Assembly: GCA_001767525.1 (NCBI GenBank)
Contig: MELF01000042.1
Span: 13,680 to 75,552 of the forward strand
Direction of reading: 5' to 3'
Length of the DNA stretch: 61,873 nucleotides
DNA from: Acidobacteria bacterium RIFCSPLOWO2_12_FULL_68_19
GTDB lineage: Bacteria; Acidobacteriota; Vicinamibacteria; Vicinamibacterales; UBA2999
The position numbers and the translations under genes were made by a program. How positions within the stretch are numbered: position 1 is the stretch's first letter; each line of letters begins with the position of its first letter. Shown piece after piece: positions 2,672-61,401 of the stretch. The notes under the pieces are model-generated. The model was given only the letters and a program-made list of their open reading frames with translations. It was not told where the DNA came from and made no database searches.

Positions 2672-3643
2672 TCACTTCGGCGGCGTCACCCCGCTGAACC
2701 ACTTGAAGCCGAGCGAGCGGGTCACTTCGATGGTGTGAGCGTTTCCCTCGTAGCACCCGGTTTCCCAGAACTCCTTCGCATACCGCTGGTCTTCCACCGC
2801 GGTCGGGTCCGACACGGCGGTGACGCCGCGAGGCCCTCTCCCAGTTCCGGCCCGTCGTCTCGGGAAGTTCATCTTCCACGGCCGCGTATAGATCGTCGGA
2901 TCCTCGACCGTCACCTCGTAGTCCATCGTATTCGCATCGGCCAGCCGCCAGCGTTCGATCATGCGCGTATTCTCGCTGTAGAACTGCCCGGTGCTGTCGA
3001 ACCATCCCTTGCCGTTGAGACTGGTCACCTCGACGACCAGGGTGTTGCCTTCCCAGCGGCCGCGCGAAGTGCCCAACCAGAACTTCGCATTCTGGCTGAT
3101 GGCCGAACGTCCATCGGTCGGGATGACTCGATAGGCCTCGTTGCTCAGCATGACCACGTAGCCGGGTTTCTGCACGATCTCATGCGCATCGAACGAGAAC
3201 ACCGGCATGTAGTCGAGGCAAAAGGATCCCGGCGAGACGTGGAGGCGTTCGCCCGTCTCGCCCGGCCATCCCCGCGCCAGGCTCCTCAGAATCTCCATCC
3301 GTTTGGCCAGCGCCCACGGGGTGTAGGGAATCTTGCCGTCCGGCGGGTCCGAGACGAAGCTCTCCTGGGCCGGTGTCGTATCGTCGAGGTATTCGTGGTC
3401 TTCGAGATAGCTGTTGTTGTCGCCGCCTGCGCCGTCCCAGATCCCCTGGAGATCGGGCTCCCCGCCGGGAGTGCGCGGCGGCGTATACGGCGGAAGCTTC
3501 GCCTTTTCGGCGAGCCACGTCTTTGCCATCGGAAGCTTCGGGCCCTTGGGCCAGACGGTTTGCCCGGCCGCGACCGGCACGAGCAGCACGACCAGGAGCG
3601 CGATCGCCAAGAGGGATTCGATCGCAGCGACTCGACGGCTCAC
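2672..3643 (-). CDS. Secreted PDLQGIW/RGRWEGNTLVV-family protein, copy 1
   Basis: Function unknown. I place the start at GTG 3643, with an AGGTG ribosome site just upstream. This gives 323 aa with a clear signal peptide (a Leu/Val/Ala-rich stretch at residues 10-26 ending AAG), so the protein is exported. Key signatures are PDLQGIW at 63-69 and SRGRWEGNTLVVEV at about 193-206, followed by a beta-rich C-terminus (ERWRLADANTMDYEVTVEDP; TRPWKMNFP). Two other copies occur at 3672-4472 and 7909-8895. The upstream paralogue ends 28 bp before this start, so the two probably share a transcript. A longer reading frame to 3742 exists but would run into the neighbour. Confidence 0.85.
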   Translation of the reverse strand: MSRRVAAIESLLAIALLVVLLVPVAAGQTVWPKGPKLPMAKTWLAEKAKLPPYTPPRTPGGEPDLQGIWDGAGGDNNSYLEDHEYLDDTTPAQESFVSDPPDGKIPYTPWALAKRMEILRSLARGWPGETGERLHVSPGSFCLDYMPVFSFDAHEIVQKPGYVVMLSNEAYRVIPTDGRSAISQNAKFWLGTSRGRWEGNTLVVEVTSLNGKGWFDSTGQFYSENTRMIERWRLADANTMDYEVTVEDPTIYTRPWKMNFPRRRAGTGRGPRGVTAVSDPTAVEDQRYAKEFWETGCYEGNAHTIEVTRSLGFKWFSGVTPPK

Positions 3644-3671
3644 GCGACACCTCGCTTTCTCATATACCCGC

Positions 3672-4472
3672 TCACCGCTTCTCGAAGAACGTCGACGCGG
3701 GATTGGTCCATTCCTGCTCGAGCAGGTACGCATTGCACTCATATTCGAAGAGCTCGGCGTTCCTCTCCTGGCGCCGGTAGAGCGGCATGCTGATCTTCCA
3801 CGGCCGCGTGAACACCTTCGGATCCTCGATCGTGGCCTCGTAGAGCAGGTGATCCGGGCCGGTCGGCGTGTAGCGCTCGACGACGTGGAGGGCGCTGCTA
3901 TGGAAGTTCCCGGCCCGATCGAACCAGGTGCGGTCGGTGAAGTGGATCACGTCCACCACGAGGGTGTTCCCCTCCCACCTGCCGCGCGAATCCCCCATCC
4001 ACCATTCGATCTGTCCTCGAGGATGCGGATTGCCGTTCATGTAGACGTACCGAACGGTATGCAGGTACTCGTAGAGGATCGAGACCTTGTCGGCCTGCTG
4101 CACGATCTGGAACGGATAGGGCATGTACGTGATCCGGGGCACTCCCGGGTGGAAACACTTCGTCTCCGGATCGAGCGACGCACGTTTCTCGAAGTTCTCC
4201 TTCTTCCGTGCGAGCGCCGCGGGCTGGTACGGGATGGCGCCGCCCTCCACCACACTCCGACCGGCGGGCACGCCGAGCCGCGCGCCGTGATCCTCGAGGT
4301 CCCACGCAGCCGTGTTGAGCACCTGCCATACACCCTGCAGGTCCGGCTGTCCGTCCGCCGTGCGCGGCGGCACGTAGGGTGCGGCCGGCGAGGTCTGTCC
4401 CACGACCGACGCCGGCGCGAGCATGCAGAGCGCCGCCACGCCGACAGTCAACGCCGCGAATCCACGCCTCAC
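3672..4472 (-). CDS. Secreted PDLQGVW/RGRWEGNTLVV-family protein, copy 2
   Basis: This is a 266-aa exported protein with a signal peptide at residues 1-25 (MRRGFAALTVGVAAL, ending VVGQ). The family landmarks are PPRTADGQPDLQGVW (36-49), a DSRGRWEGNTLVVDV block (161-175), ERYTPTGPDHLLYEATIEDP and FTRPWKISMPLYRR. The two Trp-rich signatures are almost identical to those in the other two copies, while the rest has diverged. No catalytic motif is recognised. It is the first gene of a likely two-gene unit with copy 1. The 177-bp upstream gap to the convergent end of the membrane-protein gene must hold its promoter. Confidence 0.87.
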   Translation of the reverse strand: MRRGFAALTVGVAALCMLAPASVVGQTSPAAPYVPPRTADGQPDLQGVWQVLNTAAWDLEDHGARLGVPAGRSVVEGGAIPYQPAALARKKENFEKRASLDPETKCFHPGVPRITYMPYPFQIVQQADKVSILYEYLHTVRYVYMNGNPHPRGQIEWWMGDSRGRWEGNTLVVDVIHFTDRTWFDRAGNFHSSALHVVERYTPTGPDHLLYEATIEDPKVFTRPWKISMPLYRRQERNAELFEYECNAYLLEQEWTNPASTFFEKR

Positions 4473-6616: not shown

Positions 6617-7894
6617 ATGCGCATCGCACCACTGCTGGCGATTCTGGGCGTTCTCGCCTCTTCGACTGCGCTGGCGGCGACCACCGCCATCAAGCTCGGC
6701 AAGCTGGTGGACGGACAAGGCAAGGTCATCAGCAACGCCGTCGTCATCGTCGAAGACGACCGCGTCGCGCGGGTCGCCACGGGCAATCCGCCGCTGCCGA
6801 GCGGCACCGAGGTGATCGACCTCTCCAGGTATACCGGCATTCCGGGACTGATCGACGCCCACACCCACATCACGTACTTCTGGGATGGGGTGACCACGCC
6901 TCGCAGCGAGCCGCCGCGTCACCCCGCCGTCGTCGCCTCTTTCGCGCAGGAGAACGCCCGCAAGGCGCTCGAGGCCGGCGTGACGACGATCCGCGATCTC
7001 AACGCGGCGAGCGGCGTGGACCTGGCGATGCGCGACCTCGTCAACATGGGAAGGATCGTGGGGCCGCGGATGTTCGTGTCCGGCACGGCGCTCCGGATTA
7101 CGCGCAGCACCGCGCCGCCCGCGCCGATCGGGTTGATGGTCGACGGGGTGGACGCGGTCATCCGCGGCGTGCGCCAGGTCATCGCGTCCGGGGCCGACTG
7201 GGTGAAGATGCACGGATCGACCGGCGGCTTCGACGACGTGACCCAGTTCCAGACGTTCACCTTCGAGGAGATGAAGGCGGCGGTCGACGCCACGCACGCC
7301 CTCGGCAGGAAGATCGCGGTTCACTCCTACGGACCGGCGGGCGCCCGGGACGGCGTTCGCGCCGGCGCCGATTCGCTCGAACACGGGGCGGACATCGACG
7401 ACGAGACGCTCGCGCAAATGGCCAGGCGGCGGATCTACTACATCCCGACGATCGACCACAACCAGTACTACATAGAGAACGCCGACAGCGTCTACCACTT
7501 CCCGCCCGGCGCGAAAGAACGCCTGCGCGATTACATCCAGCGCAACGTCGACACGGCACGAAAGGCGCTTCGCGCGGGGGTCCGCATCGTCATGGGCTCC
7601 GACGCGGTCTACAACGGCTGGGGCCTCAACGCGCGTGAGCTCGAATGGTTCGTGAAGATCGGCATGACGCCCGAGCAGGCGCTGAAGGCGGCCACGACCG
7701 AGGCGGCCGCGCTGCTCGGGATGGAGAAGAATCTCGGGGCCGTCGCGCCAGGATTCCTTGCCGACATCGTCGCCGTGGAAGGCGACCCGCTCGCCGACAT
7801 CACCGCCGTCTCGAGGCCGGAGCACGTCCGCTGGGTGATGAAGGCGGGGCGGGTCGTGGTCGACAAGACAACGAGAACGGACGGGACGAACTGA
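6617..7894 (+). CDS. Exported metal-dependent amidohydrolase (imidazolonepropionase/prolidase-like)
   Basis: The 425-aa protein has a signal peptide at residues 1-20 (MRIAPLLAILGVLASSTALA). It then has an amidohydrolase-superfamily TIM barrel: the metal-binding HxH in DAHTHITY (82, 84), the lysine of WVKMHGSTGG, His residues in AVHSYGP and SLEHGADID, and the catalytic Asp of MGSDAVYN. The C-terminal strand region (GAVAPGFLADIVAVEGDPL) closes the composite beta-domain. It belongs to the group of secreted dipeptidase or imidazolone-hydrolase-like enzymes; the substrate cannot be named. The gene sits 14 bp before a PDLQGFW-family gene, probably as one transcript. Confidence 0.88.
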   Translation: MRIAPLLAILGVLASSTALAATTAIKLGKLVDGQGKVISNAVVIVEDDRVARVATGNPPLPSGTEVIDLSRYTGIPGLIDAHTHITYFWDGVTTPRSEPPRHPAVVASFAQENARKALEAGVTTIRDLNAASGVDLAMRDLVNMGRIVGPRMFVSGTALRITRSTAPPAPIGLMVDGVDAVIRGVRQVIASGADWVKMHGSTGGFDDVTQFQTFTFEEMKAAVDATHALGRKIAVHSYGPAGARDGVRAGADSLEHGADIDDETLAQMARRRIYYIPTIDHNQYYIENADSVYHFPPGAKERLRDYIQRNVDTARKALRAGVRIVMGSDAVYNGWGLNARELEWFVKIGMTPEQALKAATTEAAALLGMEKNLGAVAPGFLADIVAVEGDPLADITAVSRPEHVRWVMKAGRVVVDKTTRTDGTN

Positions 7895-7908
7895 AGGAGG
7901 TGGCTCGC

Positions 7909-8895
7909 ATGGGCCGTCGATTGCTCGCTTCATTCGTAGTCATGCTGGTTGCCGCGCCCTCCCTGTCCCTTGCCGGGCAGGCCACCGGGTGGAGGCCGCC
8001 GCGCACTCCCGACGGACAGCCGGATCTGCAGGGCTTCTGGACCAACGCCACCTACACACCACTCGAGAGGCCGAAGGACGTCACCAAGGCGTTCTACACG
8101 AAAGAAGAAGCCGCCGAACTCGAGAAGCGACTCGCCGCCGCGGACGCGGCGCAGACCGAGCCGGGCACGATCGAGGACGTGCACTATGACTTCACGCAGT
8201 TCGGCCTCGATACGCATCAGGCGCCGTACGCGTCGAATCAGCGCACGTCGATGATTGTCGACCCACCCGACGGCCGGCTCCCGCCGATGAGCGAGCCAGG
8301 ACGCCGGCGTGCGGCCGAGCGCGCCGAGCAGGAGAAGCGGGTCGGCCGATGGGACTCGGCGCAGACCAACCAGCTCGACGACCGCTGCATGATCTTCGCC
8401 GGCGCGGGACCGCCGATGCTGCCGCAGAGCTACAACAGCAACTACCAGATCGTGCAGGCATCGGGATACGTGATGATCCTGTTCGAGATGGCGCACGACG
8501 TGCGGATCATCCCGCTCGACGGACGCCCCCATCTGCCGCCGGAGATCCGGCAGTGGATCGGCGACTCCCGCGGACGATGGGAAGGCGACACGCTCGTCGT
8601 CGAGACGACGAACCTCAACGGCAGGAATCCGCTGAACGGGTCGAGCGAGCACATGCGCGTGACCGAGCGGTTCACCCGCGTCGACGCCGACACGATCCGG
8701 TATCAGTTCACCATCGAGGACCCGTCGACCTGGACGAGGCCCTGGTCCGCGGAGCTGCCCATGCGCAAGGCCACGGGGCCGCTCTTCGAGCATGCCTGCC
8801 ACGAAGGGAACTACGGCCTCTACAACACGCTGGCGGGAGCCCGTCTCGCCGAGAAGAAGGCCGCCGAAGAAGCCGCCAGGAAGGGATCGAAGTAG
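7909..8895 (+). CDS. Secreted PDLQGFW/RGRWEGDTLVV-family protein, copy 3
   Basis: The 328-aa protein starts at ATG 7909 behind a strong AAGGAGG (7894-7900). A signal peptide covers residues 1-24. Landmarks are RTPDGQPDLQGFW (32-44), IGDSRGRWEGDTLVVETTNL, RYQFTIEDPSTWTRPWS and an Ala/Lys/Glu-rich C-terminal tail. Function is unknown and it is paralogous to the two minus-strand genes at 2.7-4.5 kb. Its last 20 nucleotides are repeated exactly at 12201-12220. This suggests that its 3' end was the insertion point of the integron block that follows. Confidence 0.87.
   Translation: MGRRLLASFVVMLVAAPSLSLAGQATGWRPPRTPDGQPDLQGFWTNATYTPLERPKDVTKAFYTKEEAAELEKRLAAADAAQTEPGTIEDVHYDFTQFGLDTHQAPYASNQRTSMIVDPPDGRLPPMSEPGRRRAAERAEQEKRVGRWDSAQTNQLDDRCMIFAGAGPPMLPQSYNSNYQIVQASGYVMILFEMAHDVRIIPLDGRPHLPPEIRQWIGDSRGRWEGDTLVVETTNLNGRNPLNGSSEHMRVTERFTRVDADTIRYQFTIEDPSTWTRPWSAELPMRKATGPLFEHACHEGNYGLYNTLAGARLAEKKAAEEAARKGSK
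8876..8895 (+). repeat. Left copy of a 20-bp direct repeat flanking the integron block
   Basis: The 20 bases at the very 3' end of the PDLQGFW-family gene, including its TAG stop, recur without mismatch at 12201-12220 in the same orientation. Bases outside the repeat differ on both sides. It looks like a junction duplication, as seen for elements that integrate at gene ends. Confidence 0.75.
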
Positions 8896-8915
8896 ACCCC
8901 ACGCTTCTTGCGAAT

Positions 8916-8946
8916 CATGCGACGACGATGGCATCGTCGTCGCATG
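8916..8946. promoter_or_regulatory. Perfect 15-1-15 inverted repeat over the start of the integrase pseudogene
   Basis: CATGCGACGACGATG is followed by a single G and its exact complement, so the dyad is continuous. Its right end covers the integrase ATG at 8944. A dyad this tight at a start codon could be an operator, a translational hairpin for intI, or a terminator for the upstream gene. No T-run follows it. Confidence 0.45.
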
Positions 8947-9570
8947 GAATCGTCTCGCCCCAAGCTCCTCGATCGCGTCCGGCAGGCGATTCGCACCCGC
9001 CACTACAGCCGGCGAACGGAAGCCGGCTACGTGACGTGGATCCGGCGGTACATCGTCTTTCACCGCAAGGCGCATCCCGCCACGCTGGGTGCGGCTGACA
9101 TCTCGGCGTTCCTGACGCGGCTCGCCACGACACAACGGGTCAGCGCGTCGACGCAGAACCAGGCGCTTGCCGCCCTGCTGTTCCTGTACGAGCACGTCCT
9201 GCAGATGTCCGTGGGTCCGGTGGAGCACGTCGTGCGGGCGAAGCAACCGGTTCGCCTTCCCGTGGTGCTCAGCCGGGATGAGGGCGGGCTAGCCCGAATT
9301 ATTCATGAACACCGCAGGGTCGAGGAGACACGTTCGCTCCGAAACGCGGCTCCGCAGGCCGGAAAAACGCCGCTCCGGCGTATCGTCGGCGGCCATGGCG
9401 TGGGGGCCCCCATCCCCACGCCGTGTCGCTGGCCTACGCGGCGTTTTTCGTGATCGGAACGGCCTGCTCCGAACGCGTTTCTCCGCGAGCGTGTCCCCTC
9501 AACCGGTTCGTTCATGAATAATGTGGGCTAGTGCTATCGAGGCTCGACGGCGTTGGCCGCGTGACCCGCG
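8944..9570 (+). pseudogene. intI: Integron integrase (IntI-type tyrosine recombinase), interrupted and truncated
   Basis: The first 115 codons read as the N-terminal SAM-like domain of a chromosomal integron integrase: SPKLLDRV-like start, AIRTRHYSRRTEAGYVTWIR, ISAFLTRLA, STQNQALAALLFLYEHVLQ, then RLPVVLSRDE. At 9290 the frame enters a 237-bp palindromic element. Past it, at 9531, the frame resumes with VLSRLDGVGRV, which is what normally follows LS.E(V)(R)A in IntI. Removing the element plus one TA restores the frame exactly. After about a dozen codons the similarity stops and the catalytic R-H-R-Y domain is absent, so the gene is dead. It reads in the same direction as the cassettes. Confidence 0.88.
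9292..9528. mobile_element. 237-bp palindromic MITE-like element with TA target duplication, inserted in intI
   Basis: The two ends match as inverted repeats (GCCCGAATTATTCATGAAC and the complement of GTTCATGAATAATGTGGGC; 17 of 19 identical). The pairing continues with interruptions through almost the whole length to a centre near 9406. A TA dinucleotide lies immediately outside each end (9290-9291, 9529-9530). Excision with one TA kept restores the integrase reading frame. No transposase is encoded. TA duplication and terminal repeats fit a non-autonomous member of the IS630/Tc1-mariner superfamily. The parent element is not visible in this window. Confidence 0.8.
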
Positions 9571-9626
9571 TCCAACGCCTCTCGCCCGTTACGGCACATG
9601 TGGCGGCAACGCGCACTTCAAGTTGA

Positions 9627-9707
9627 ACTTACCGAGAGGAACTGCAGCACGATTGGGAGCTCTTGCAATCGGGGCAGCCGCCGGTCAAGATCGAACCACT
9701 CACGTAG
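9627..9707 (+). pseudogene. C-terminal remnant of a DUF4160 cassette gene
   Basis: A short open stretch ends at TAG 9705-9707 and encodes REELQHDWELLQSGQPP followed by VKIEPLT. This agrees with the usual C-terminus of DUF4160 proteins (ELxxDWELA..G....I.PL). It begins just after an in-frame TGA and has no upstream domain, so only the tail survives. DUF4160 genes commonly precede DUF2442 genes, and the next ATG (9711) is a DUF2442 gene three bases on. Confidence 0.55.
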
Positions 9708-9710
9708 TCC

Positions 9711-10046
9711 ATGACTCATCCCATCCATCGCGTCACACGGTTCGATATCGTCGGGCCGTACACGTTGGCAGTGGTGTTCGCCGACGGGACCACGCAAGAG
9801 ATCAACTTCCGGCCAGTGTTGCACGGCGCGCTTTTCGGCCCTCTGCGGGATCTGGCCGTGTTCAACGCCGTGACCCTCGATCAAGAAGTGGGTACCCTGA
9901 CATGGCCGAACGGCGCCGACTTCGATCCGGCGACACTTCATGACTGGCCCGACGTGTGCGACGAATTCGCTGCGCGGGCTCAGGCGTGGGCGGAGCCCCC
10001 AGCCGAACCGCGGGCCAACACGCGAATGGAGCCGACGCGCCGCTGA
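9711..10046 (+). CDS. DUF2442-domain protein (integron cassette gene)
   Basis: The 111-aa protein has the DUF2442 pattern: HRVTRFDIVGPYTLAVVFADGT, INFRPVLHGALFGPLRDLAVF, then LDQEVGTLTWPNGADFDPATLHDW. DUF2442 proteins are small and DNA-associated or toxin-antitoxin-linked, and are frequently paired with DUF4160. The pair's biochemical role is not established. The last 11 codons (ANTRMEPTRR) are encoded by the attC site that begins at 10013, as is common for cassette ORFs. The upstream partner is reduced to a tail. Confidence 0.82.
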   Translation: MTHPIHRVTRFDIVGPYTLAVVFADGTTQEINFRPVLHGALFGPLRDLAVFNAVTLDQEVGTLTWPNGADFDPATLHDWPDVCDEFAARAQAWAEPPAEPRANTRMEPTRR

Positions 10047-10081
10047 CGCGACGGCGCGCGGCTCATTCGTGGCCGTTGGGC
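10013..10081 (+). repeat. attC recombination site, plus orientation
   Basis: The site runs from GGCCAAC (R'', close to RYYYAAC) to GTTGGGC (R', fitting GTTRRRY). The inner arms CGAATGGAGCC and GGCTCATTCG pair with one extra base in the left arm. That extrahelical base is the hallmark that sets attC polarity, so the site reads in plus orientation. A 21-nt internal stretch (10027-10047) is identical to the complement of 19935-19955 in the second cassette block. Confidence 0.85.
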
Positions 10082-10122
10082 CGACAACGGCGGACAGCGG
10101 GGGGCGGCGTAGAATACGAATC

Positions 10123-10347
10123 ATGAGACTCGATGAGGTCGAAGCTGAGGCGCTGAGGCTCGAGCCGGCGGCCCGGGCTCGGCTCGTCACAAAACTATTG
10201 GCCAGCCTCGAGGCGCTGACCGACGAAGAGAATCTTCGCCTGTGGGCCGAGGAGGCCGAGCGGCGAGATGACGCGTGGGAAGCCGGTGGACAGACCGGCC
10301 ACCCTGCCGAAGAGGTGTTCCGAGAGGCACGCGCTCGCCTAAAGTAG
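10123..10347 (+). CDS. Addiction-module antitoxin-like protein (cassette gene)
   Basis: The 74-aa protein has the layout of the small addiction-module component family (TIGR02574-like). The N-terminus MRLDEVEAEALRLEPAARAR is followed by LVTKLLASLEALTDEENLRLW and an acidic/basic helical tail (EEAERRDDAWEAGGQ, PAEEVFREARARLK). In this family the protein neutralises a ParE/RelE toxin. The toxin gene starts at the base after its stop codon. The toxin is truncated, so this antitoxin may be an orphan in practice. Confidence 0.75.
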   Translation: MRLDEVEAEALRLEPAARARLVTKLLASLEALTDEENLRLWAEEAERRDDAWEAGGQTGHPAEEVFREARARLK

Positions 10348-10533
10348 ATGGTCGCCTCATTCCACGACCTGGCGAAGGTCGAGCTGAACGAGGCGGCGCT
10401 GTATTACGAGGCTGAGAGTTCGGGGCTCGGCGCGGCATTCCTGGCCGAAGCGGAACGTTCGGTCGCCGCCATTCTCGAGTATCCAGAATCAAGTCCTATC
10501 GTGCGAGGTTCCGTTCGGCGGCGGGCGCGATGA
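10348..10533 (+). pseudogene. ParE/RelE-type toxin, C-terminally truncated
   Basis: It starts at ATG 10348 directly after the antitoxin stop. The 61 residues match the N-terminal half of ParE-family toxins: FHDLAKVELNEAALYYEAESSGLGAAFLAEAERSV in two helices, then ILEYPESSPIVRGSVRR. Full-length relatives are about 95-100 aa and continue with the RRFPY..Y.. strands that carry the active face. Here the frame ends in RAR and TGA inside GC-rich DNA that looks like a collapsed attC. The module is probably inactive. Confidence 0.65.
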
Positions 10534-10603
10534 TGAGCCGCCGCGGCTGAAGCGGCACGTTGCCAGAGCACTTGGAAGCGAAGGCGGGTGGTAATCTCTG
10601 TAT

Positions 10604-10843
10604 ATGAATTCTCGACAACTGCTGGACGCGGCGCTGCAGCTCACGCCAGAGGAACGGGCGGCTCTGGCTGGCGAGCTGATTCAGAGCCTCGACACCGAAG
10701 TTGACCCGGATGCCGAGGCCGCCTGGTCCGAAGAGATCCATGCGCGGCTTGCTCGGGTAGATGCCGGCCCAGCGAAGACAGTGCCGTGGTCCGAAGCTCG
10801 TCGCCGGATCCACGCCGCCGCCGGACGTGAGCCCCGCGCTTGA
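10604..10843 (+). CDS. Addiction-module antitoxin-like protein, second module
   Basis: The 79-aa protein has the same family architecture as the 10123 gene: LLDAALQLTPEERAALAGEL, IQSLDTEVDPDAEAAW and SEEIHARLARVDAG. The tail VPWSEARRRIHAA is typical of this antitoxin group. It overlaps the following toxin gene by 17 bp, as expected of a translationally coupled toxin-antitoxin pair. It differs from the first module at most positions, so the two are independent cassettes rather than a recent duplication. Confidence 0.78.
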   Translation: MNSRQLLDAALQLTPEERAALAGELIQSLDTEVDPDAEAAWSEEIHARLARVDAGPAKTVPWSEARRRIHAAAGREPRA

Positions 10844-11138
10844 GTACCTCGACGAGGCGATCGAAGAGGCCGAAGCCGCTGCACGGGGGTACGCCGCAAG
10901 GAGCACTACTGCTGCCTCCGGGTTCGCCGACGAAATAGATGCGGCGATCGCCGCGATCGCGCAAGATCCAGAGGCATGGCCGTCTTACGATCGCGGCACG
11001 CGCCACTACTTGCTGCGTCGATACCCATTCAGCGTCGTGTATCGCATCGAGGAGACGAGAATTCTGGTGGTTGCCGTGGCGCATGGACATCGGCGGCCTG
11101 GGCACTGGGCGTCACGTCGTCACAACAGGCCTAGCTAA
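10827..11138 (+). CDS. RelE/ParE-family toxin, second module
   Basis: I chose GTG 10827, inside the 3' end of the antitoxin gene, giving 103 aa. It shows the full ParE/RelE fold pattern: LEYLDEAIEEAEAAARGY, FADEIDAAIAAIAQDPEAWP, then RHYLLRRYPFSVVYRIEETRI and LVVAVAHGHRRPGHW. The C-terminal basic strands that are missing in the first module are present here, so the toxin may be functional. In the family such proteins inhibit gyrase or cleave mRNA; which applies cannot be told. Its 3' end runs to the edge of an attC-like structure. Confidence 0.8.
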   Translation: MSPALEYLDEAIEEAEAAARGYAARSTTAASGFADEIDAAIAAIAQDPEAWPSYDRGTRHYLLRRYPFSVVYRIEETRILVVAVAHGHRRPGHWASRRHNRPS

Positions 11139-11214
11139 TCAAGGCGATGGACCAGACGCCACGTCGGGCCACTCTCGTGTCCCTTCCGGCGCTGGTCATC
11201 GCCGGCCGTTGATA
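11127..11214 (+). repeat. attC-like site, degenerate ends, plus orientation
   Basis: A strong stem forms between 11143-11160 (GGCGATGGACCAGACGCC) and 11188-11203 (GGCGCTGGTCATCGCC), with two extra bases in the left arm. That asymmetry gives plus polarity, as for the site at 10013. The outer boxes are poor: CTAATC on the left and CCGTTGAT on the right. It lies directly after the toxin stop codon, the normal place for an attC. Confidence 0.6.
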
Positions 11215-11248
11215 TGGCGGAACAATCTACGTAGAAGGGAGCGACAGT

Positions 11249-12082
11249 GTGATGACGAACGCACCCCTGAATCCAAACAAGGCACTGTGGGAAAAAGGCG
11301 ACTTCACGCGCATTGCCGCGACCATGCGCGAAAGCGGAGAAGCGCTCGTGCAGCGGATCGGCATTGCCAGAGAATCGAGGGTGCTGGATCTCGGGTGCGG
11401 CGATGGGACCACCGCACTGCCGGCGGCCAAGCTCGGAGCGAACGTGGTGGGGGTCGATATTGCCCGGAATTTGGTCGAGGCCGGGAACAGGCGGGCCCGG
11501 GAGCTGGGCCGGGCGAACTGCACGTTCCGGGAGGGGGACGCCACCAATCTGCACCCGCTGCCTGATGACGGGTTTGACGTCGTCGTCAGCATCTTCGGCG
11601 CGATGTTTGCCCCCAAACCGTTCGACGTCGCCAAGGAGATGGTGCGCGTGACGCGGCCGGGAGGTCGCATCGTGATGGGCAACTGGATTCCCAACGACCC
11701 GACGCTCGTGGCCCAGATTCTGAGGATCAGCTCGGCCTATGCGCCGCCGCCGCCGGAAGGCTTCGTGAGCCCCATGGCGTGGGGCGTCGAGAGCAACGTG
11801 ATCGAGCGGTTTGGCGGCGCAGGGGTTCCGGCGGAGAACATTACCTTCGCTCGAGACACGTTCGTCTTCAACTTCGGTGGCCCGCCAGCACGGTTCGTGG
11901 ACGAATTCAGGAACTACTACGGGCCAACCATGAACGCCTTCGAAGCCGCTGAAAAGAACGGCCGAGCCGCTGACCTGCAGAAGGAGCTCGAAGAGCTGTT
12001 CAGCAGGCACAACACAAGTACGCACGCCACGTCCATCCCGGCAACCTTCTTGCGCGTGACGGTCGCTGTTGGACAGGCGTGA
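11249..12082 (+). CDS. Class I SAM-dependent methyltransferase
   Basis: The protein is about 277 aa; GTG 11249 or ATG 11252 may be the start, behind GAAGGGAG. It contains the SAM-binding motif I LDLGCGDGTTALPAA, motif II-like VVGVDIARNLVE, FREGDATNLHPL, and post-I FDVVVSIFGAMFAP with VTRPGGRIVMGNW. It is a small-molecule-type methyltransferase with a C-terminal region (FNFGGPPARFVDEFRNYYGP) found in UbiE/SmtA-like enzymes of unknown substrate. It is the last gene of the integron block and the largest. I see no attC after it, so it may have entered by another route. Only 156 bp separate it from the convergent MmgE/PrpD gene. Confidence 0.85.
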   Translation: MMTNAPLNPNKALWEKGDFTRIAATMRESGEALVQRIGIARESRVLDLGCGDGTTALPAAKLGANVVGVDIARNLVEAGNRRARELGRANCTFREGDATNLHPLPDDGFDVVVSIFGAMFAPKPFDVAKEMVRVTRPGGRIVMGNWIPNDPTLVAQILRISSAYAPPPPEGFVSPMAWGVESNVIERFGGAGVPAENITFARDTFVFNFGGPPARFVDEFRNYYGPTMNAFEAAEKNGRAADLQKELEELFSRHNTSTHATSIPATFLRVTVAVGQA

Positions 12083-12200
12083 CGCCGTGTTCCGATGTGC
12101 GCGGGCGCTGTGATCTCCGCACGTTCCGCCGTCTCGCGACTGCGTTGGATCGCGTCCGCCTTGACCTGCTTCCTGAGCTTCGTACGTCCTCCAGCAGTGA

Positions 12201-12220
12201 CCAGGAAGGGATCGAAGTAG
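12201..12220 (+). repeat. Right copy of the 20-bp direct repeat flanking the integron block
   Basis: This is an exact repeat of 8876-8895 (gene 3' end with its stop codon). It lies 18 bp before the stop codon of the convergent MmgE/PrpD gene. If the intervening DNA is removed, the PDLQGFW gene and MmgE/PrpD become ordinary close convergent neighbours. The rest of 12083-12238 holds no gene that I can see. Confidence 0.75.
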
Positions 12221-12238
12221 CGGTCGATCCGCCGAACG

Positions 12239-13738
12239 CTACGCCCGCTTCTGCAGCAGCGGACCTAGCATCCGCACGTCCTTGATCGTCTCGACGGCCA
12301 GCACCGCGTCGATCAGCTTCTGCGCGGTGGAGGTTCCGAGCACCGGGGCGATCAGGTCCCTGGCCTTATCGACGACCTCGCCCCGGGCCATCGGGTTGCG
12401 CACGGTGCCCCGCACGGCCTCCACCCGCTCGGAGAGCTCCGTGCCGTCGGTGAGCGTGATGCCAACGACCGCCACGCGCGCCGGCAGGAGCGCATCGAGC
12501 GTCGGGTCCGGCACGTACCGCACCTTGCGCCGCTGGCGGAGGATCTCCTCGTCCTGCATGCGCGGCTTGTCGTGCGCGGCGTGGAACGAGGCGGTCCCGT
12601 CGACGAGCATCACCGCCACCATGTGCTGCAGGCAGATGTCCGGCAGCTCGCGGTTGTCGACGACGGCGCCGACGGCGGGCGCCAGGCGCACCACCACGGT
12701 CCCGACGTCAGTGGCGCCGAACGGGCGTTTCTTTCGGAGGTTCTCGATGGCGTCGAGCGGCGCCTGGATCGGCGTCCCGACCGTCCATTTCTTGATATCG
12801 GTGCGGGCAATCTCGTACCGCGCCCCGAGCGCGTCGACCAGGACCGCCGGATCGCTCTTCGGCGCGTTCACCTGAAAGAAATTGTCGTCGCCCGAGAACA
12901 CGTCGTCCACGCCGGTCCACCCCGAGCGGACGAGCAGCGCCGCCGTGACGCCGTTGCGCGCCGGCATGCCGCCGAAGACGAACCCCTTCTCGATGTGATC
13001 GGTGTCGCGCGCCCAGATGGCGTAGCCCGACGCCTGCTGGGCCGCGTAATCGAGGAGCCACCGCATCTGCTGCGCGGTCAGCCCCGCGATGCAGCCGGCC
13101 GCCGCAGCCGATCCGAAGTTCCCCGCGAAGGCGTGGGTGCTGCGGCGGCTCTCGTTCCGGAAGGTCATGCCGCCGAGCGCCATCGTGTGCCGGCAGCCGA
13201 CGTCGTAGCCGAGCGTCACCGCGCGCAGGTAGTGTTCGCCGGTCGCGCGCATCTCTTCTCCCAGCGCCAGCGCCGCGGGCACGATCGAGGCGCCCGGATG
13301 CGACTGCGACGGTCCGTGGGAGTCGTCTGTTTCGTCCGAATGGGCGAGGACGCCGTTGACGAGCGCGGCGTCGATCGGTCCGGTGACGACGCTGGAGCCG
13401 ACCACGGTCGCGACCGGGCGGCCCGCGCCGGCCTGCGCCATCTGGAGCGCCACCCGGCCCGCCGGGAGATCCGAGCCCGACACCATCGCCGCGAACGTGT
13501 CGAGGATGTGATGCTTGGCTTTCTCGATGACCTCGGGCGGCAGCCGGCGGTCTTTCGCGGCGGCCATGTAGCGGCTGAGCGCGGTCATGACGGGGCCGAC
13601 GGCCGCATTCGCCGAGCCCGCGGCGCCCGCGGCCTGCCCGAAAAGGCGCGTTGCCGGCAGGGCGGCGGCGCCAACGATGAGTGCGCCGCGCGAGAGGAGG
13701 TCGCGGCGGGACAGCCGACAGGCCAGACGTGACGTCAT
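12239..13738 (-). CDS. MmgE/PrpD-family protein with Tat signal
   Basis: The 499-aa protein starts with a twin-arginine signal (LSRRDLLSRGALIVGAAAL), so it is exported folded. The body is a MmgE/PrpD domain: HHILDTFAAMVSGSDLPAGR, VNGVLAHSDETDDSHGPSQSHPGASIVPAALALGE, GYDVGCRHTMALGG, ATHAFAGNFG-like region, and a C-terminal hot-dog-like half (GTPIQAPLDAIENLRKKRPF). Family members include 2-methylcitrate dehydratase and cis-aconitate-type decarboxylases; the HSDETDD.HG motif marks the active site. A Tat-exported version is unusual because the characterised enzymes are cytosolic. The start is divergent from the gene at 13790. Confidence 0.88.
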   Translation of the reverse strand: MTSRLACRLSRRDLLSRGALIVGAAALPATRLFGQAAGAAGSANAAVGPVMTALSRYMAAAKDRRLPPEVIEKAKHHILDTFAAMVSGSDLPAGRVALQMAQAGAGRPVATVVGSSVVTGPIDAALVNGVLAHSDETDDSHGPSQSHPGASIVPAALALGEEMRATGEHYLRAVTLGYDVGCRHTMALGGMTFRNESRRSTHAFAGNFGSAAAAGCIAGLTAQQMRWLLDYAAQQASGYAIWARDTDHIEKGFVFGGMPARNGVTAALLVRSGWTGVDDVFSGDDNFFQVNAPKSDPAVLVDALGARYEIARTDIKKWTVGTPIQAPLDAIENLRKKRPFGATDVGTVVVRLAPAVGAVVDNRELPDICLQHMVAVMLVDGTASFHAAHDKPRMQDEEILRQRRKVRYVPDPTLDALLPARVAVVGITLTDGTELSERVEAVRGTVRNPMARGEVVDKARDLIAPVLGTSTAQKLIDAVLAVETIKDVRMLGPLLQKRA

Positions 13739-61325: not shown

Positions 61326-61401
61326 GGGCCTGTAGCGCAGTTGGGAGCGCGCCTGAATGGCATTCAGGAGGTCACCGGTTCGATCCCGGTCAGGTCCACC
61401 A
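61326..61401 (+). tRNA. tRNA-Ala (anticodon GGC)
   Basis: The 76-nt cloverleaf includes an encoded CCA. The acceptor GGGCCTG pairs with CAGGTCC (one G-T), the D-arm is GCGC..GCGC, and the anticodon stem is CCTGA/TCAGG around loop ATGGCAT (anticodon GGC). The T-arm is CCGG TTCGATC CCGG. The discriminator is A. It would read GCC and GCU alanine codons. Confidence 0.97.

Follow-up and report, generated by a model that had tools for sequence, protein, structure and literature searches.

The stretch of DNA analysed here, called the window, comprises 61,873 bp of contig MELF01000042.1 from the Acidobacteria bacterium RIFCSPLOWO2_12_FULL_68_19, a member of the order Vicinamibacterales. Within it lies an integron integrase gene (intI) that is interrupted by an imperfect palindrome of 235 bp (9293-9527), with CTAG on either side, and that resumes behind the palindrome for a short final stretch (Table 1). 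The initial annotation had taken the host gene for an integron integrase, and the profile match confirms this for the N-terminal part. Elsewhere in the window, a PRTxxGxPDLQGxW motif is common to three paralogue-like frames (2672-3742 and 3672-4472 on the - strand, 7645-8895 on the + strand), and a tRNA-Ala gene lies at 61326-61401.

Table 1. Features of the interrupted integrase gene and the inserted element, in window coordinates
Feature	Position	Strand	Basis
IntI (integron integrase), N-terminal fragment	8908..9288	+	Residues 20-125 on TIGR02249 profile positions 1-106 of 315, E 1.8e-37; 85% identity to G013, 78% to own-genome paralogue
Target duplication, left copy, CTAG, 4 bp	9289..9292	.	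Direct reading; sister copies with 4-bp duplications
Left terminal inverted repeat CCCGAATTATTCATGAA	9293..9309	+	Arm pairing, end-motif scan; similar ends in IS1380-family L066, L067, L068, L078, L079
Hairpin core conserved across the order	9331..9491	+	Covariance model R1, E 3.4e-37 (G000:C42:23010-23170; this copy is itself among the 21 sequences used to build R1); covariation
Right terminal inverted repeat CCCACATTATTCATGAA	9511..9527	-	Arm pairing, end-motif scan
Target duplication, right copy, CTAG, 4 bp	9528..9531	.	Direct reading
Final integrase-coding stretch LSRLDGV, 3' of the insertion	9532..9553	+	Alignment end at 9550 (L087), 9553 (L115)
Stretch apparently equivalent to sequence ~30 bp 3' of the stop codon in intact intI homologues	9548..9578	+	Similarity to L087rc, L115rc; weak on its own
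Tentative attC-like site GTCCAAC ... GTTGAAC, 59 bp	9570..9628	+	Motif-pair scan

The insertion and the integrase remnant

The palindrome is a real inverted-repeat structure, as had been claimed. Its arms, taken together with the flanks (9289-9310 and 9510-9531), are 91% complementary, and the DNA fold of 9289-9531 reaches -85.3 kcal/mol, compared with -48.6 +/- 3.4 in shuffled sequences (n = 200; z -10.7). Two instances of the motif at its ends are present in the window, where 0.01 would be expected. The element is short, carries no transposase gene of its own in its 235 bp and is present in several copies in the genome, all of which supports the earlier description of a MITE-like, non-autonomous element.

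When the insert is excised in silico with one flank copy kept, the sequence reads ...VVLSRDEGGLVLSRLDGV... in the integrase frame; with the element and one CTAG removed, the product SRDEGGLVLSRLDGV is in frame, and the closest relative, L087, has SRDEVRRVLSRLDG. The insertion can thus be regarded as precise and the ancestral empty site as readable, both of which had been proposed from the window. The boundaries drawn at that time, TA plus 237 bp, give the same excision product as CTAG plus 235 bp, and the window copy alone does not distinguish between them; in this respect the proposal stands, and it is the sister copies that tip the balance towards 4 bp. A search of 39 related genomes with the integrase returned 57 matches, the window's own included, in 29 of the genomes. 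From the 56 other matches, 23 homologues were read, each as the best frame of at least 200 residues, and none of them has an insert at that place, which provides the empty intI site that the initial annotation had proposed to look for in relatives.

Beyond the insertion, the match to integrases extends for only 20-26 bp. The N-terminal part of the L087 integrase matches the window at 4e-58, while nowhere in the window is there a match to its C-terminal 206 residues (best E 0.35). A stretch at 9548-9578 resembles L087rc 2520-2550 weakly (81% over 31 bp, E 0.008-0.01) and L115rc 2517-2546 (80% over 30 bp, E 0.03), and its agreement with L088 is not significant (E 6.5). These similarities suggest a deletion of ~650 bp that would have removed everything to a point ~30 bp past the stop codon of intI, and the loss of the catalytic half of the window integrase is most simply explained through such a deletion. 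Judged from its sequence, the integrase gene is non-functional even apart from the insertion, because no counterpart of the homologue's C-terminal 206 residues is found in the window; the insertion accounts for no more than one of the two lesions. The catalytic half may have been lost separately either before or after the element arrived.

Loss of cassette shuffling through the element, as had been suggested, is not supported in that form, because the catalytic half is separately gone and another integrase of the same genome (L115) matches the whole TIGR02249 profile (4e-134). A third intI of this genome (L116) has an abnormal C-terminus and covers profile positions 1-267. Convergent to it lie three overlapping frames (L116 2223-5001), tyrosine-recombinase-like by eye, which we take to resemble a recombinase-in-trio element. 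Attempts to find cassettes behind the window's intI yielded one attC-like motif pair on the + strand of the whole window (9570-9628) and one on the - strand, and no family of attC-type direct repeats, which would be expected behind intI, was found within 9532-13000. The next two genes match the antitoxin DhiA model (E 0.003) and TIGR02574 (1e-4), both under the curated cut-offs.

Sister copies, target duplications and IS1380-type ends

The initial annotation had staked its reading on there being other copies, and the genome holds full or partial ones at 10 further places, a copy on C13 that is broken in two being counted once; the two best are full-length, with 95% and 94% identity. A second copy interrupts a frame with a DKTGTLT motif, presumably a P-type ATPase, whose homologue in G025 is continuous, with four codons between the two matches. 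Plasmid copies of the element were not found by distant blastn. A 73-bp fragment lies at the C-terminal end of a putative tyrosine recombinase (L010 1501-1573; by eye). The end motif itself is far more numerous than the element, with 76 occurrences at up to 3 mismatches in the genome against 0 for the reversed control pattern. By their end sequence, over half of these belong to a second palindromic family of ~231 bp, also with IS1380-type ends (e.g. L018, L022, L025, L037, L040), and the interior of that family, in the five copies tested, has no match to the window element beyond the ends. Three loci (L004, L005, L006) appear by eye to be chimeric or nested, with the core of the window element within arms like those of the 231-bp family. 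Inverted 24-bp palindromes of yet another kind, unrelated to the element, flank the only Y1 (RAYT-type) gene of the genome (L143 1215-1238 and 2002-2025).

The flanks of these ends bear the marks of a 4-bp target duplication rather than of a TA duplication. Identical 4-bp flanks are found at 10/30 end pairs, compared with 3.7 when flanks are reshuffled (p 0.0002); as the 30 pairs include overlapping ones from the chimeric L004 (two) and L005 (three), the count was repeated without these five rows and gave 9/25 against 2.8 (p 0.00015). Even where the left flank is other than CTAG, four of 20 pairs are identical (CCAG, CTAA, ATAG and TTAA; 0.7 expected, p 0.002). The outer two flank bases agree across the two sides in 48/60 cases, against 29.3 expected, a value that 0 of 20000 reshuffles reached, and the central two, being nearly fixed, agree no better than composition predicts. 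Because the outer bases vary together, and under a TA duplication they would on one side be fixed bases of the element, a duplication of 4 bp is favoured. No exact 4-bp duplication is seen at the other 20/30 pairs, which we read as the result of age, recombination and chimeras.

Ends of this kind also occur on IS1380-family elements of related genomes. Among the 39 related genomes, 12 match the IS1380 transposase domain (PF13701), and paired 17-bp ends with 1-5 mismatches were present at five of the 20 PF13701 loci fetched (L066, L067, L068, L078, L079). Exact 4-bp duplications (TTAG, TTAG, CTAG, CTAG) surround four of these five, and the fifth, L078, continues up to the limit of the sequence fetched. 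Target duplications in the IS1380 family measure 4-5 bp. The remaining 15/20 loci have no such paired ends, and since near-complete elements (L069, L073) are among them, other IS1380 groups must exist. The element and these insertion sequences share only the terminal ~17 bp, and comparison of the core with four IS1380 elements returned the ends and nothing else significant (best other E 0.038). In the genome's own assembly, no PF13701 gene was found. The first bases of contigs C1 and C28 fall within one IS1380 end (for C1, 87% identity to L067 over 71 bp, E 5e-20), and those of C35, by eye, within the other; such breaks are as expected where a repeated insertion sequence interrupts the assembly and are a possible reason for the absent gene.

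A hairpin core found across the order

Matches of the element in other genomes of the order are confined to its inner parts, up to about bases 29-204, and often come without the element's ends. The inner 161 bp belong to a hairpin family for which a covariance model, R1, was built from 21 of 31 core sequences; left out were five duplicates of a second collection, the own-genome copies L065, L006 and L007 (the last one broken), the cut-off L051 and also L064. Of 120 genomes sampled from the order, 42 contain the core according to R1, whose own sequences had come from six of those 42; they represent 28 of 70 genera and 12 family-level groups, and a single genome has as many as 21 copies. Among 149 genomes of the phylum, the eight with a core all belong to this same order and include the genome studied here, a result that doubles as a control of the model. 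A genome of the same genus (G001) has no core match. The palindrome is hence more than the filler of a MITE: its core is an order-wide structured repeat.

The fold is conserved along with the sequence. In 80 aligned copies, the covariation score is 0.419, compared with 0.104 in shuffled and at most 0.088 in slid alignments, the alignment having been fitted to the structure, which favours the score. Standard pairs fill 93.9% of the pair cells, and 380 cells are changed on both sides against 105 in shuffles. The non-Watson-Crick cells comprise 42 G.U and 57 A.C; in an RNA of fixed strand, a preference for G.U would be expected. By a crude, purpose-made gene finder, 72/75 copies lie outside predicted genes, 44 of them between tandem, 15 between convergent and 8 between divergent genes and 5 at an edge; relative to the 44 tandem pairs, 21 copies have the same and 23 the opposite orientation. 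As A.C is as frequent as G.U and the orientation to genes is random, the structure looks like a DNA-level one. Rfam, searched with the window stretch and 20 loci, gave no match to the hairpin above the gathering score; the sole strong match is a tRNA in L221, outside the hairpin, and sX13, the best of the sub-threshold matches, was disregarded at 25.7 bits, its gathering score being 50.

Some hairpins carry additional sequence. In L199 and L218, from two family-level groups, a second nested palindrome is seen by eye in the 5' arm, at a position common to both, and in some hairpins of G026 and G038 (L182, L184, L189, L191, L192, L194, L196, L212) the 3' arm has an extra stretch of the ACTTCGCT type that is absent from sister copies.

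The copies cluster by genome. Of the 74 copies that have a sister in the set, 62 have their nearest neighbour in the same genome, compared with 7.1 on shuffling. Between two species of one genus, G026 and G038, no common flanking sequence was detected at E 1e-8 when 16/21 copies of the former were compared with 12/20 of the latter (a self-search gave 278 hits), and at E 1e-3 there are two weak matches (30% and 43% identity). The two outer arms of one copy pair better with each other than with arms taken from different copies. The comparison covered 53 of the 80 copies, with the 3' letters permuted inside each of four genomes and inside a mixed set of 15 copies; the arm stretches compared take in 10 core bases per side, and 0/1000 permutations reach the observed sum. 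The mean local arm scores, within against between copies, are 13.1/9.4 in G026, 13.8/8.1 in G038, 19.6/8.8 in G034, 17.6/13.2 in G040 and 17.7/9.3 in the 15 mixed copies.

IS1380-type ends are rare around the core. Both sides bear them in 9/80 copies, compared with 1/312 control places, and these nine are divided among the present genome G000 (4), G024 (2), G040 (2) and G035 (1); a further 13 of the 80 copies have such an end on one side, against 24/312 control places. Because ends on both sides are found in only these nine copies, the window element looks like an order-wide hairpin that has been joined to IS1380 ends.

Origin of the element and its place among known systems

On account of its ends and duplications, the element is filed here as an IS1380-dependent MITE and was most likely moved by an IS1380-family transposase. 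We infer that such an enzyme, supplied from elsewhere, would recognise the 17-bp ends and move the 235-bp palindrome, duplicating a 4-bp target that is mostly CTAG, as in intI. The initial annotation had instead assigned the element to IS630/Tc1-mariner with a TA duplication, which now appears very improbable. TA is indeed central in the CTAG flanks, so that the palindrome can be read as TA plus 237 bp plus TA, and it stands in the middle on both sides in 13/30 end pairs, yet that reading needs a fixed G and C beside the TA, and the left base differs from G in 11/30 pairs, as the right base does from C in 10/30. These neighbour bases vary in step with the far side, as described above, the CCAG/CCAG pair is a 4-bp duplication that contains no TA at all, and ends like these are carried by IS1380-family elements. 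Even harder to credit is that a RAYT (Y1) transposase moved the palindrome as an element of the REP/REPIN type. The single Y1_Tnp gene of the genome speaks in favour of this, but the palindrome on its two sides is another one, nothing in the surrounding 3.3 kb matches the element significantly (best E 0.026, 16 bp), and a 4-bp target duplication is not expected of Y1 enzymes. An origin of the window copy from RAYT was rejected, as the genome's only Y1 gene is not flanked by the element.

As to the interior, it is a copy of the order-wide hairpin repeat, which is mostly found without IS1380 ends, and in a few lineages the hairpin and the ends may have become one unit that moves together. The main alternative to such a joining is that the hairpin family has always been an IS1380 MITE and that copies without ends are old ones whose ends have decayed. 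Decay is seen within single genomes, as G024 and G040 have copies with one-sided or poor ends and L048 of G024 retains a left end at 5 mismatches; nevertheless, both ends occur in 0/59 copies outside G000, G024, G035 and G040, and arms that pair within a copy and differ between copies are not given by simple decay, which makes this explanation rather unlikely. Less probable still is a core that acts as a terminator or is transcribed into a structured RNA, its spread with IS1380 being incidental. The strong covariation and the position of nearly all copies outside predicted genes would suit it, and the + strand of the window copy has two overlapping terminator-like sites against 0.2 expected. 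The comparison of G.U with A.C, the even orientation to tandem genes and the want of an Rfam match to the hairpins all argue against it, as do the flanks of the two same-genus species; the convergent and divergent settings (15 and 8 of 75) form no clear terminator pattern, and the terminator reading was set aside for its lack of a clear pattern in gene context and orientation, in spite of the overlapping sites on one strand.

Taken together, we consider it very likely that the element is a MITE dependent on an IS1380-family transposase, that its interior is a copy of the order-wide hairpin and that the integrase was separately broken. We put forward more tentatively, as a possibility short of an even chance, that the core is a separate mobile DNA hairpin of the order, kept and spread by its fold and with its own mode of spreading, which was joined to IS1380 ends in the lineages of four sampled genomes and now also moves as a MITE. 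The copy-specific, self-complementary arms, the covariation without G.U bias and the clustering by genome have led to this proposal. Palindrome correction during replication could also produce compensatory changes without selection.

As a MITE, the element is of a known kind, with its family corrected from IS630/mariner to IS1380. The less ordinary part is a hairpin whose sequence and fold are conserved across 12 family-level groups, with arms that change and still pair. It makes a case for asking whether dispersed palindromes in bacteria persist through selection on DNA structure, palindrome correction or hairpin-based movement, and likewise how transposon ends come to be added to them. In the titles and abstract openings listed by a literature search whose scope did not extend to ISfinder and most subscription papers, neither this hairpin family nor an IS1380 MITE inside intI was found described.

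Among known systems, the IS1380-family elements of the relatives share with the window element 17-bp ends of the same kind and 4-bp duplications; the element differs in its 235 bp and its lack of a transposase gene, the ends alone being common to both. For IS1247, a published member of the family, an IR of 16/13 and a DR of 5 are given (PMC3281130). Repeats associated with tyrosine transposases (TIRYT) have been described in Acidobacteria (PMC3733652); unlike REP/RAYT and TIRYT arrangements, the one Y1 gene here is not flanked by the element's family. Non-autonomous elements at integrons are a further parallel. The MITEs at integrons treated in PMC10969869 flank class 1 integrons in Acinetobacter, whereas the present one sits within an intI gene that is truncated. 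Integrase inactivation has been described in Xanthomonas, and integrons are on record for Acidobacteriota (PMC8618304). For the core, the nearest analogue, likened by description, is ERIC, a family of taxon-wide and mostly intergenic palindromic repeats whose copy number differs by species (PMC10969869). The core differs from ERIC in belonging to another phylum, in having outer arms that are specific to each copy and in being partly bounded by IS1380 ends.
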